A stretch of DNA of 45,648 nucleotides from Rhizobacter sp. Root1238 (GTDB lineage Bacteria; Pseudomonadota; Gammaproteobacteria; Burkholderiales; Burkholderiaceae_C). The stretch is from positions 1-45,648 of the forward strand of contig NZ_LMDM01000010.1 in assembly GCF_001425825.1 (NCBI RefSeq), read 5' to 3'. Within the stretch, counting starts at the first letter, position 1. Each line of letters begins with the position of its first letter. Position numbers and translations under genes: made by a program. The notes below the pieces were generated by a model. It worked only from the letters and a program-made list of their open reading frames with translations. It was not told where the DNA came from and searched no databases. Positions 32,151-35,165 of the stretch are shown piece by piece.

Positions 32151-32843
32151 TCATGCCAACGGCGCGCAAGCCACGCGGAAATCGACGTGGTAGTGCTCGT
32201 CGTGCCGCACCCACGCGCGGCCCTTCATGAAGTTGACGTGCTCGCGCAGCCAGTCACCACGCGGCGTGGCCAGCAGCATCGGCAGGTACGGCGGATCGAA
32301 GATCACCATCGCGAGGCCGGACCCGTGGCGCCGTGCCGACTCCGCGAGCTGGAACAGGTGCTCGGCGATCGCCGCGAAGTCGATGCGCAGGTCATCGAAG
32401 CGCGCTGCCGCATCGAACTCGATCGAGTAGCCGAGCTTGTTCGTGAGCCCCGTCGGCAGCGGCACCGACACGCCGGCCGCATTGCGCACCGGCACGAAGA
32501 AATCGACCGACAGGCCGTTCTGGTGGCTGCGGTGCGGGCGGATGCGGCCGCCACTCGCCCAGCCGGTCTCGCCGTAGACGAAGACCGTGCCCGGCAGCGC
32601 CGTCGCGAGCTGCGCATACGCATCGACGACGATGTCGCGCACCGTCGAGTGCACGTGGGTGCGGCCGGCCGTCACGCCGAGCCGGCTGTAGGCGGCGAAG
32701 TTGGCCCCGTCCGCCGGCAGCGCAACACCCTCCTCCAGCCGCCCCTGGGCCACCGTGCCGAAGCAGCGGCTCGCGCCCCAGGACGGCAGCGCGGCTGTCG
32801 CAGCACAGCCCGCGAGCAAGGCACGGCGATGGATGCGGCTCAC
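32151..32843 (-). CDS. Penicillin-insensitive murein endopeptidase-like (M74) protein
   Basis: 230 residues. The N terminus has a twin-arginine-like signal (MSRIHRRALLAGCAATAALP). Metal ligands of the LAS/M74 fold are visible: His and Asp in RPHRSHQNGLSVDFF, and His residues in RHDEHYHVDFRV. MepA cleaves the D-Ala-meso-DAP cross-links of peptidoglycan in the periplasm. Its start overlaps the ApbE stop (ATGA), so it is translated with the flavinylation operon. The family assignment rests on these metal motifs; the remainder is divergent. Confidence 0.8.
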   Translation of the reverse strand: MSRIHRRALLAGCAATAALPSWGASRCFGTVAQGRLEEGVALPADGANFAAYSRLGVTAGRTHVHSTVRDIVVDAYAQLATALPGTVFVYGETGWASGGRIRPHRSHQNGLSVDFFVPVRNAAGVSVPLPTGLTNKLGYSIEFDAAARFDDLRIDFAAIAEHLFQLAESARRHGSGLAMVIFDPPYLPMLLATPRGDWLREHVNFMKGRAWVRHDEHYHVDFRVACAPLA

Positions 32844-33823
32844 GCCGAAACGGCCGCGCTCTCGCCGCGCTGCCAGATCTCGTGCCGGTGGATGCCCCCC
32901 TGCGCATCGACGGCCAGGTAGCCGACGTTCTGCGACTGCAGGAACGCCAGCGCGTCGCCCTGCAACAGCATCGCGATCGTCGTCAGCGCGCCGGCGGCCA
33001 GGCAGGCGGGTGCGACCACGCTGACCGATTGCCAGTGCGACACCGGCATGCCGCTCCGCGGGTCGAGGACGTGGCAGTAGCGCACGCCTTCGTGCTCGAA
33101 GAATCGCTCGTAGTCGCCGCTGGTCGCGAGCGCGCCGTCAGCCAGATCGATGCGGGCGATCAGCGCGCGCTCGTGCCGCGGGTGCTGCACGCCGAGCACC
33201 CACGGCCGGCCGTCGGGGCGCGGGCCGATCAGGCGGATGTCGCCGCCCAGGTTGACCATGCCGTGGCGCACGCCGCGCGACTGCAGCAGCGTCGCGGCGC
33301 GGTCGGCCGCGTACTCCTTGCCGAAGCCGCCGAAGTCGAGCTCCATGCCGGCCATCGGCAGCTCGATGCGGCCCACCTGCCCCGGGCCGCGGCGCTGCCA
33401 GTGCAGCCTGGTCCAGCCGACCCGCGGCAGCAGCTGCGCAAGCTGCCCGTCGGCGGGCTGGCGGCCGGCCTTGAAATCCCAGGCCTGGCGGAGCATGCCC
33501 GAGGTGATGTCGAACAGCCCGCCGCTGCTCGCATGCAACTGCGCCGCGAAGTCGAGCAGGTCCGCCGTCTCGACATCGACCTCGACCGGCGTGCCGCTGC
33601 CGGCGGCCGCGTTGATGCGCGACACCACGCTCGCGTCGCGGTAGCGCGAGAACTTCGATTCGATGCGCCGCACCTCGTCGATCGCCTCGCGCGCCAGCGG
33701 CTCGGCCTTCTTGCGGCCGAGGCCGGCGATGCGAATCTCGCACTCGCAGGCCATCGCGCCGAAGCCGAAGCCGAGGTCGTCGGCCTGCGCCTCGGCGCGC
33801 GCCGACATCGGATGCATCGACAT
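32840..33823 (-). CDS. apbE: FAD:protein FMN transferase ApbE
   Basis: 327 residues from ATG 33823. It transfers FMN from FAD to a Thr/Ser of target proteins. Conserved parts: GAMACECEIRIAG near the start, SSGGLFDITSGML, LDFGGFGKEYAADRAATLL, GMVNLGGDIRLIG and the metal/FAD part RYCHVLDPRSGMPVSHWQSV. Unlike most ApbE proteins, no signal peptide or lipobox is visible; an in-frame upstream extension also lacks one. It lies two bases after the DUF3570 stop and overlaps the M74 peptidase start. The adjacent DUF3570 protein has a matching flavinylation motif. Confidence 0.93.
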   Translation of the reverse strand: MSMHPMSARAEAQADDLGFGFGAMACECEIRIAGLGRKKAEPLAREAIDEVRRIESKFSRYRDASVVSRINAAAGSGTPVEVDVETADLLDFAAQLHASSGGLFDITSGMLRQAWDFKAGRQPADGQLAQLLPRVGWTRLHWQRRGPGQVGRIELPMAGMELDFGGFGKEYAADRAATLLQSRGVRHGMVNLGGDIRLIGPRPDGRPWVLGVQHPRHERALIARIDLADGALATSGDYERFFEHEGVRYCHVLDPRSGMPVSHWQSVSVVAPACLAAGALTTIAMLLQGDALAFLQSQNVGYLAVDAQGGIHRHEIWQRGESAAVSA

Positions 33824-33825
33824 GG

Positions 33826-34956
33826 TCAGAACTTTCGGCTGATGCCGACCTGCAGCATGCGCGCCTTGAACGGCTCGAGCCCCTTCGAGCCTTCGCCGCC
33901 GGCGCGCCATTCGCCGCGCTGCTGGTAGGCCTCGCCCTTCAGGTCGACCGTCCACAGCGCGTCGACCGCCCATTGCAGCTTCAGCCCGAGCGTGAACGCA
34001 CCGAAGGCCGACAGCCGCTGGTCGAGCGAGTGGGTGGCGTTGGCATCCCACCCCACCGGGAAAGGCTCGCCGAGCGTCGTGTCGTACACCGGGTCGGCAT
34101 AGAACGATGCGGCGCTTTGGGTGTAGTAGCGCAGCAGCGGCGTCAGGCTGACGCCGCCGCCGACCGGCTTGACCCATTCCAGCTGCAGCGTGCTCGCCTT
34201 GACCTGCCAGCTGTCGTTGTAGGCGCGGTAGCTGCTGCGCAGCGTGGAGCCGTCGCCGGCGAAGTGGTGGTTCCAGCGCAGCAGCAGCGCGGTCTGGCGG
34301 CGCTCGCTGGGCCGCCGGTCGAGCGCCTTGTAGGGATCGTCCAGGTAGCCGGTGCTGCGGCTGTGCGTCAGGTTGGCCTGCACCAGGTCGTCGCCGGTGA
34401 CGGCCTGCGTGACGCCGACGATGAAGTCGTTGGTGCGCTTGCGCTCGTCGGCGACGTTGCCGTCGTAGCCGCCGTCGGTCGGGTCGATCTTGTCGCCGGC
34501 ATGGCCGAAGCCGGCGTTCCAGGTGGTGTTGTTGTCGTCGCTCGACCACGTACCGGCCAGCGAGAACGCACGCGACAGGTAGTCGTGCTCGGTCGAGTAC
34601 GCGCCGCCGAGCGACAGCGACGCGCGCTGGAAGTAGCGCGTCACCTTGACGTCGCCGGCCTTGCGTTCGTCGTCCATCGTCGACGCGCCCGACACGTTGC
34701 TGTGGTAGCGCGGCGTCGCGCCCGACACGTGGTCCACCGTGGCCGTCGCCTCCAGGCCCCAGCCGGTGCCGAGCGGCGTGACGAGCAGGAAGGACGGCGA
34801 GTTCACCGTGATGCGTTTCCAGCCGGGCTGCGAGTCCTGGTAGTTCAGGAAGCGCAGGCCGACCAGGCCTTGCTCTGGAGCGCTTTCGGCGTGCGCGACG
34901 CCGGGCAGGGCCAACGCGGCGAGCACGAGGCTGCCGAGGGGGGCGTTCAATTGCAT
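33826..34956 (-). CDS. DUF3570 outer-membrane beta-barrel protein with ApbE flavinylation motif
   Basis: 376 residues with a signal peptide (ending VAHAESAPEQG) and alternating strands ending KARMLQVGISRKF, a C-terminal phenylalanine as in barrel proteins. It matches DUF3570 in length and in parts such as LRFLNYQDSQPG and GWGLEATATVDHVSGAT. DHVSGAT (residues 75-81, 34714-34734) fits the ApbE target pattern D-x-x-[ST]-G-A-[TS] exactly, with Thr81 as the likely FMN acceptor. A second, degenerate copy (SNVSGAS, 86-92) follows. Start overlaps the DUF4266 stop by ten bases. The function is inferred to be redox-related. Confidence 0.85.
   Translation of the reverse strand: MQLNAPLGSLVLAALALPGVAHAESAPEQGLVGLRFLNYQDSQPGWKRITVNSPSFLLVTPLGTGWGLEATATVDHVSGATPRYHSNVSGASTMDDERKAGDVKVTRYFQRASLSLGGAYSTEHDYLSRAFSLAGTWSSDDNNTTWNAGFGHAGDKIDPTDGGYDGNVADERKRTNDFIVGVTQAVTGDDLVQANLTHSRSTGYLDDPYKALDRRPSERRQTALLLRWNHHFAGDGSTLRSSYRAYNDSWQVKASTLQLEWVKPVGGGVSLTPLLRYYTQSAASFYADPVYDTTLGEPFPVGWDANATHSLDQRLSAFGAFTLGLKLQWAVDALWTVDLKGEAYQQRGEWRAGGEGSKGLEPFKARMLQVGISRKF
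34714..34734 (-). other. Predicted FMN attachment site in the DUF3570 protein
   Basis: Codons for D-H-V-S-G-A-T; the last Thr is the expected site of the phosphoester to FMN made by ApbE. Confidence 0.6.
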
Positions 34957-35165
34957 CCGCAGCCTCCGCCACCGACGCCATAGCCGCCGGACGCGTTTTC
35001 CTTGCTGGTGTAGATGTGCTGCTCGAAGCGCTGCTCCAGCGCATCGCCACCCATCGTCATCTCGGGCTTGGCCAGGTTGCCCTTCTCCCAGGCCTTGGGC
35101 ACTTCGTAGTTGGCGCAGCCGGCCATGCAGCCCAGCACCAGCAGCCCGATCGCTGATTTCGTCAT
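34947..35165 (-). CDS. DUF4266 small lipoprotein with Gly/Cys C-terminal tail
   Basis: 72 residues. A lipoprotein signal precedes Cys13 or Cys17 (LLVLGCMAGCAN). The middle YEVPKAWEKGNLAKPEM and DALEQRFEQHIYTSKENASG are the conserved part of DUF4266. It ends GGYGVGGGGCGCN, with two cysteines (69, 71) among glycines. It is the first gene of the operon with DUF3570 and ApbE and overlaps the DUF3570 start by ten bases. The tail could bind metal, form disulfides or be modified; none is shown here. Confidence 0.85.
   Translation of the reverse strand: MTKSAIGLLVLGCMAGCANYEVPKAWEKGNLAKPEMTMGGDALEQRFEQHIYTSKENASGGYGVGGGGCGCN

Follow-up and report, generated by a model that had tools for sequence, protein, structure and literature searches.

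We propose that the DUF4266-DUF3570-apbE module of Rhizobacter sp. Root1238 produces an outer-membrane redox protein that receives its flavin before export and is fed by a thiol chain, a reading whose chances we put at about even. The core of it, flavinylation of DUF3570 by its ApbE, is already known, because a homologue with two flavinylated sites has been described in the text of PMC8238504. Relative to the literature searched, three points appear new: the predicted outward-facing position of the sites on a barrel-like DUF3570; the leaderless linked ApbE, hence probably pre-export attachment of FMN; and a clade of ApbEs, here called type A, with Gly in place of the active-site Asp.

In the literature searched, DUF3570, DUF4266 and PF12094 were named in PMC8238504 only, and no paper combined flavinylated, translocon and FMN. 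ApbE and “lacks a signal peptide” occurred together only in a JBC review (PMC12052999). The text of PMC8238504 does not contain “barrel” or “porin”, and has “outer membrane” once, for siderophore transporters. No remark on a linked ApbE without signal or without Asp was seen in that text; the figures could show ApbE as unsecreted.

Locus and flavinylation motifs

The window, i.e. the whole stretch of DNA analysed, has 45,648 nucleotides. On its minus strand the gene order is DUF4266-DUF3570-apbE-Peptidase_M74-like, and adjacent genes overlap or stand apart by only a few bases. The DUF4266 gene (34947..35165), for a small lipoprotein-like protein of 72 aa, overlaps by 10 bases the DUF3570 gene (33826..34956). 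The DUF3570 protein (376 aa; PF12094, E 3.9e-61) is a predicted beta-barrel with a signal peptide at about residues 1–23 and a C-terminal Phe. Its stop codon ends at 33826 and the ATG of apbE (MSMHP...) lies at 33823, which confirms the two-base distance given by the sequence-only reading. The apbE gene (32840..33823, minus strand) encodes 327 aa (PF02424, E 8.7e-79), by family a FAD:protein FMN transferase. Its stop overlaps by four bases the Peptidase_M74-like gene (32151..32843), which is on the same strand and perhaps shares a transcript with the module.

The nearest named relative found was Rhizobacter sp. SG703, with a DUF3570 protein 94% identical to that of the window. Related loci fell into two operon types. 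Type A carries thioredoxin-like, DUF4266, DUF3570 and ApbE genes, often with DsbD; type B is long, with HZS_alpha, SH3, OMP_b-brl, TPR and further genes. Neither TlpA/thioredoxin-like nor DsbD genes were found beside the window DUF3570 or beside its closest relative (L074). The source genome has four DUF3570 copies (the window, C1, C28 and C48). Copy C1 (L039) adjoins thioredoxin and DsbD genes, C28 follows a TlpA-like protein identified by eye, and both stand without apbE; C48 is a type-B copy. The window ApbE may serve three DUF3570 copies of its own genome.

The first motif, DHVSGAT (34714..34734, minus strand), covers residues 75–81, with Thr81 as putative acceptor. Both its position and its exact fit to D-x-x-[ST]-G-A-[TS] had been read correctly from the sequence. 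That reading overlooked a second [ST]GA[ST] motif 11 residues further on, SNVSGAS (34681..34701, minus strand), with Ser92 as putative acceptor and a first position other than Asp. D-x-x-[ST]-G-A-[ST] is the flavinylation motif as given by the 2025 JBC review, in whose text an Asp to Ala exchange in another target had a minor effect only (PMC12052999).

A chance origin of the motif was ruled out: 0.007 strict motifs are expected by composition in the window DUF3570 protein, and none occurred among 290 further conserved genes of the neighbourhoods, together 104,563 aa. For conservation we used two sets, whose taxon range is almost all Pseudomonadota. In 398 Pseudomonadota genomes, with up to four candidates scored per genome, at least 35 DUF3570 genes were recognized by Pfam profile in 29 genomes, and all 35 were examined. 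The second set was the best 80 of 503 confirmed relatives. Motif enrichment as an artefact of selection was rejected, because the peptide patterns used to collect the second set left the motif out.

The strict motif proved common, with 26 of the 35 profile-derived proteins and 79 of the best 80 relatives (the exception, L151, has Glu for Asp). At exactly homologous columns the first count is 22/35, since the well-formed motif of some proteins lies further along. A second site, again 11 residues on, was found in 68/80 and 3/35 proteins, usually with Ser or Thr in place of Asp at its first position. Where motif 1 had decayed (L058, L070, L071), the Asp was found in motif 2. In the 35-protein set, the strict motif was present in 20 of 22 proteins with apbE within 1.1 kb, versus 6 of 13 without.

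Two conserved [ST]GA[ST] motifs were reported for 228 flavinylation-associated DUF3570 proteins in the text of Meheust et al. 2021 (PMC8238504). According to the same text, the Chlorobium luteolum DUF3570 showed in-gel flavin with its cognate ApbE, abolished only when both motif serines were mutated, and DUF3570 genes are linked to DsbD, thioredoxin and the CxC-bearing DUF4266. By analogy with this homologue, both Thr81 and Ser92 of the window protein would carry FMN. The earlier proposal of a covalent FMN carrier is thus well supported, with two sites rather than one, and in its essence already published. The window module shares with the published DUF3570/DsbD systems the Pfam families (DUF3570, DUF4266, ApbE) and the two motifs, while the thioredoxin/DsbD linkage is seen in the relatives and the C1 paralogue, not beside the window copy (PMC8238504, as far as its text goes). 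That text does not place DUF3570 in the outer membrane or describe it as a barrel, and no mention was seen there of the leaderless ApbE or the missing Asp. The last two, like the outward orientation predicted for the sites, had also escaped the sequence-only reading.

Predicted barrel and side of the flavin sites

DUF3570 is predicted to be an outer-membrane beta-barrel of roughly 14–18 strands. Topology was modelled with our own small barrel model, with hand-set parameters and even strand numbers only. Against strand numbers that we take to be the true ones, it was right for seven of nine E. coli barrels (OmpF, OmpC, OmpG, OmpX, Tsx, LamB, OmpA) and wrong for OmpT (12, true 10) and FadL (18, true 14); the score of MalE was negative. 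The 114 DUF3570 proteins scored (L047 left out) had a mean of +0.037 bits/aa and a minimum of −0.013. The 108 neighbour proteins averaged −0.084 (sd 0.053), and four of them reached 0.037. The window protein scored 0.051, weaker than the classical barrels (0.09–0.21).

For the window protein the model preferred 18 strands (0.50) to 16 (0.38). Over the 114 proteins the best number was 16 in 54, 18 in 25, 14 in 22 and others in 13 (range 12–24), and three profile runs favoured 14. Of 115 DUF3570 proteins, 113 end in Phe, Trp or Tyr. Weak OMP_b-brl matches were found for 7 of 69 members (best E 0.0044), and a DUF3570 profile search against PDB sequences gave three matches only (best E 1.1). The earlier description as a barrel-like outer-membrane protein is supported here by prediction, from a modest topology score, the C-terminal aromatic residue and the signal peptide.

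An outer loop was likelier than a periplasmic turn at residue 81 in 114/114 proteins and at residue 92 in 112/114, with an outer-loop probability above 0.5 in only 59 and 45, respectively. In the three profile runs this probability was 0.45–0.61 at 81 and 0.37–0.69 at 92, with the turn at 0.05 or less. In the 114-protein profile thirteen strands are predicted after the sites, which with a periplasmic C-terminus would make the sites face outside; this side assignment depends on strand parity with both termini periplasmic. Of the top 40 columns by conservation, 30 fall within predicted outer loops, with many charged ones among them. Larger indels at 86–93, 160–167, 211, 295–304 and 349–362 also fall within predicted outer loops; the indel at 43–48 precedes the first profile strand, and those at 109 and 336 are exceptions to outer-loop placement. 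Thr81 and Ser92 are thus predicted to share one extracellular loop.

The linked ApbE: export signal and active site

We collected 96 ApbE ORFs from DUF3570 loci, 25 from the 35-protein set and 71 from the 80-protein set, among them three of type B, one 4.4 kb off and one on the other strand. Signal peptides were sought with a simple test of our own (cut-off 1.9, any start within 90 aa allowed). None of the 96 passed (best 1.70), including the window ApbE, in which neither signal nor lipobox was found. In 44 of the 96 the most upstream start is 20 aa or less from the domain.

Among control ApbEs 28/31 passed; the failures were L190, signal-like by eye, and the other ApbEs of the window genome, L008 (a gene that also counts among the 96, as the type-B row L041) and L010. 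Positive controls were DUF3570 (45/45 ORFs of 370–400 aa in the 80-protein set, 25/35 in the other), DUF4266 of up to 95 aa (55/55 and 26/27, respectively) and TlpA (32/44). The window DUF3570 (h10 2.36) and DUF4266 both passed. Signals did occur in L176 and L182, both type-B-linked and both counted in the 28 passing controls, and, by eye, in a Hymenobacter plasmid ApbE. The plasmid searches led to one locus from Bacteroidota and three records from Vibrio; the former and one of the Vibrio loci were examined. The Vibrio ApbE (L197) had no signal by eye and grouped in the type-A clade.

The ApbE of L010/L195 (own genome, C49), which fails the test, stands next to a protein that we take to be DUF2271-like. 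Pre-export flavinylation may hence reach beyond DUF3570.

The missing export signal suggests that FMN is most likely attached in the cytoplasm, before export. In the text of PMC8238504 the C. luteolum DUF3570 was tested as an apparently signal-truncated construct and recovered mainly in the cell pellet, so attachment to an unexported protein looks chemically possible. The cognate apbE of a DUF2271 test was signal-truncated there, and “a similar cloning strategy” is given for the DUF3570 pair, so that the C. luteolum ApbE may itself possess a signal. A cytosolic ApbE of Klebsiella pneumoniae also lacks a signal peptide; its target, as described in the review text, is a soluble cytoplasmic fumarate reductase, whereas that of the window ApbE is an exported predicted barrel (PMC12052999).

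The active site also departs from the usual ApbE. Conserved catalytic residues of the Vibrio cholerae enzyme are given as Ser241, His257 and Asp285 (PMC12052999, in its text), and the column spacing in chain 6nxi agrees with these. Metal contacts in the Treponema pallidum enzyme are described as Asp284, Ala162 and Thr288 (text of PMC5655446), and Asp280 and Thr284 are listed for E. coli (text of PMC4767422). The window ApbE has the conserved Ser and His, and Gly278 in place of the Asp; judged by its residues, its activity is therefore not certain.

Type-A ApbEs retained Ser and His in nearly all rows. Their Asp column held Gly in 91/91 readable rows (94 rows, 3 gaps), versus Asp in 29/31 controls (the others Glu and Asn) and Glu in 3/3 type-B rows. 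All 94 type-A rows have a Glu after a Lys, where controls mostly have Gly, and this Glu may substitute for the lost carboxylate.

A tree with 83 rows placed the type-A ApbEs, thinned to 49, together as one side of a single branch with SH-aLRT 99 (quick method). With clade membership set at a profile score of at least 244 bits, in a self-drawn gap of 239–244, the clade was present in 27 of 398 genomes: in 22/23 with a type-A DUF3570 and in 5/375 others (Fisher p 2e-30, relatedness uncorrected). The five ApbEs without type-A DUF3570 also had Gly and Lys-Glu, and their N-termini were signal-free by eye, pointing to a no-signal trait of the clade rather than of the DUF3570 partnership alone.

In two genomes without a DUF3570 match, clade ApbEs adjoin genes for small EF-hand proteins by Pfam (L211, 2484-2897; L218, 1068-1469), with MPQA[MW][ST]GAS near the N-terminus and no signal by eye. 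These are candidate new ApbE targets. At L213 (1495-2682), a further clade ApbE without DUF3570 precedes an ORF whose start looks like a signal and which has a CxxCH haem motif near the N-terminus, both recognised by eye; this ORF had no Pfam match.

Partner genes, possible mechanisms and implications

DUF4266 partners DUF3570 at 35/35 and 78/80 loci. Its C-terminus reads GCGC[NY] in 113/113 ORFs, including those where the flavin motif is degenerate; in the window this is the end of a Gly-rich CxC tail, GGGCGCN (34950..34970, minus strand). A lipobox-like stretch, by a loose pattern, was found in 74 of 82 DUF4266 ORFs of up to 95 aa. Among the loci of the best 80 of 503 relatives, 76 have a TlpA-like gene and 55 a DsbD-like one.

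The 35-protein set includes 10 type-B DUF3570 proteins: seven have D-x-x-S-[NS]-A-S at the motif columns, and three the strict motif. The proteins linked to L176 and L182 likewise have D-x-x-S-[NS]-A-S, without Gly. The type-B loci (L041, L044, L046, L048-L052, L072, L073) form a conserved long operon with a decayed motif in 7/10. Beside HZS_alpha, SH3 and OMP_b-brl they carry redoxin, DUF4266, DUF3570, TPR and, by eye, ExbB/ExbD-like genes (the Pfam run covered L072 only). That type-B ApbE acts on another protein of the operon was rejected: at 7/10 type-B loci no strict motif was found in ORFs of at least 60 aa.

On the Hymenobacter plasmid (L196, 4401-5497) the order is thioredoxin, ApbE (signal-like start, split over two frames), DUF4266-like and DUF3570, and this DUF3570 has no [ST]GA[ST] anywhere. 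L047 (8890-11628) encodes a protein of 912 aa in which DUF3570 is joined to a second half rich in Met and His; neither Pfam nor NCBIfam matched this half at E 0.1, and the fusion is perhaps a metal-linked barrel.

Under the reading that we put forward, the leaderless ApbE would attach FMN to Thr81 and Ser92 in the cytoplasm, on the unfolded precursor. The flavinylated DUF3570 would then leave via its Sec-type signal peptide and insert as a beta-barrel, so that a loop at its conserved outer mouth would hold both FMNs. As gene linkage suggests, electrons may pass from DsbD to the TlpA-like thioredoxin, to the CxC tail of the DUF4266 lipoprotein and on to FMN. The outer acceptor or donor might, as a guess, be a metal ion or a small oxidant.

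DUF3570 could instead be flavinylated outside the cytoplasm, with periplasm-facing FMNs that link DsbD/thioredoxin to electron acceptors in the periplasm, in line with the extracytosolic scheme already published. The text of PMC8238504 places DUF3570 with DsbD, thioredoxin and DUF4266 genes, and signal-like N-termini occur in the ApbEs L176 and L182 and in that of Hymenobacter. We regard this as unlikely, given that 0/96 ApbEs of DUF3570 loci passed the signal test, that the outer loop exceeded the periplasmic turn at 81 and at 92 in 114 and 112 of 114 proteins, and that the conserved columns lie on the outer side. Quite unlikely in our view is a role in maturation, in which the flavin and thiol components would not export electrons but refold DUF4266 or load it, for instance with a putative metal at its CxC tail. 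DUF4266 is indeed the strictest partner (35/35, 78/80 loci), and its tail is invariant (113/113) even beside a degenerate flavin motif; yet such a role would leave unexplained why a predicted outer loop holds two FMN sites.

It is very improbable that D-x-x-S-x-A-S is simply an element of a barrel loop and the window protein not truly flavinylated. The retention of D-x-x-S-[NS]-A-S without Gly in type-B proteins (7/10, and at L176 and L182) and the loss of the triad Asp in the linked ApbE would fit such an element, but a homologue was flavinylated experimentally (text of PMC8238504), the perfect motif tracks a nearby apbE (20/22 versus 6/13), and motif 2 can take the Asp where motif 1 decays (L058, L070, L071).

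Our preferred reading, pre-export flavinylation of an outer-membrane protein fed by a thiol chain, can be extended to a haem-free thiol-flavin conduit, which we consider unlikely as a whole. It would combine an ApbE clade that has no leader and whose metal site has been rebuilt (Asp to Gly, new invariant Glu nearby), cytoplasmic flavinylation, passage through Sec and BAM with FMN on, two FMNs at the outer mouth and a DUF4266 CxC tail reaching up the barrel; the threading of the barrel by this Gly-rich tail is speculation.

Porin-cytochrome conduits (Mtr, Pcc) hold haem cytochromes inside the barrel. They resemble the proposed system in joining an outer-membrane barrel to redox cofactors, as a works-like analogy only, and differ from it in that covalent FMN is here predicted on the barrel itself, instead of haem cytochromes within. 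If the proposal is true, a covalent flavin would already be in place before export and would travel with the protein through Sec and BAM, periplasmic FAD would no longer be needed for the DUF3570 target, and electrons would have a cytochrome-free route to the cell surface. With the Asp to Gly clade, the need of ApbE catalysis for metal could then be tested directly.
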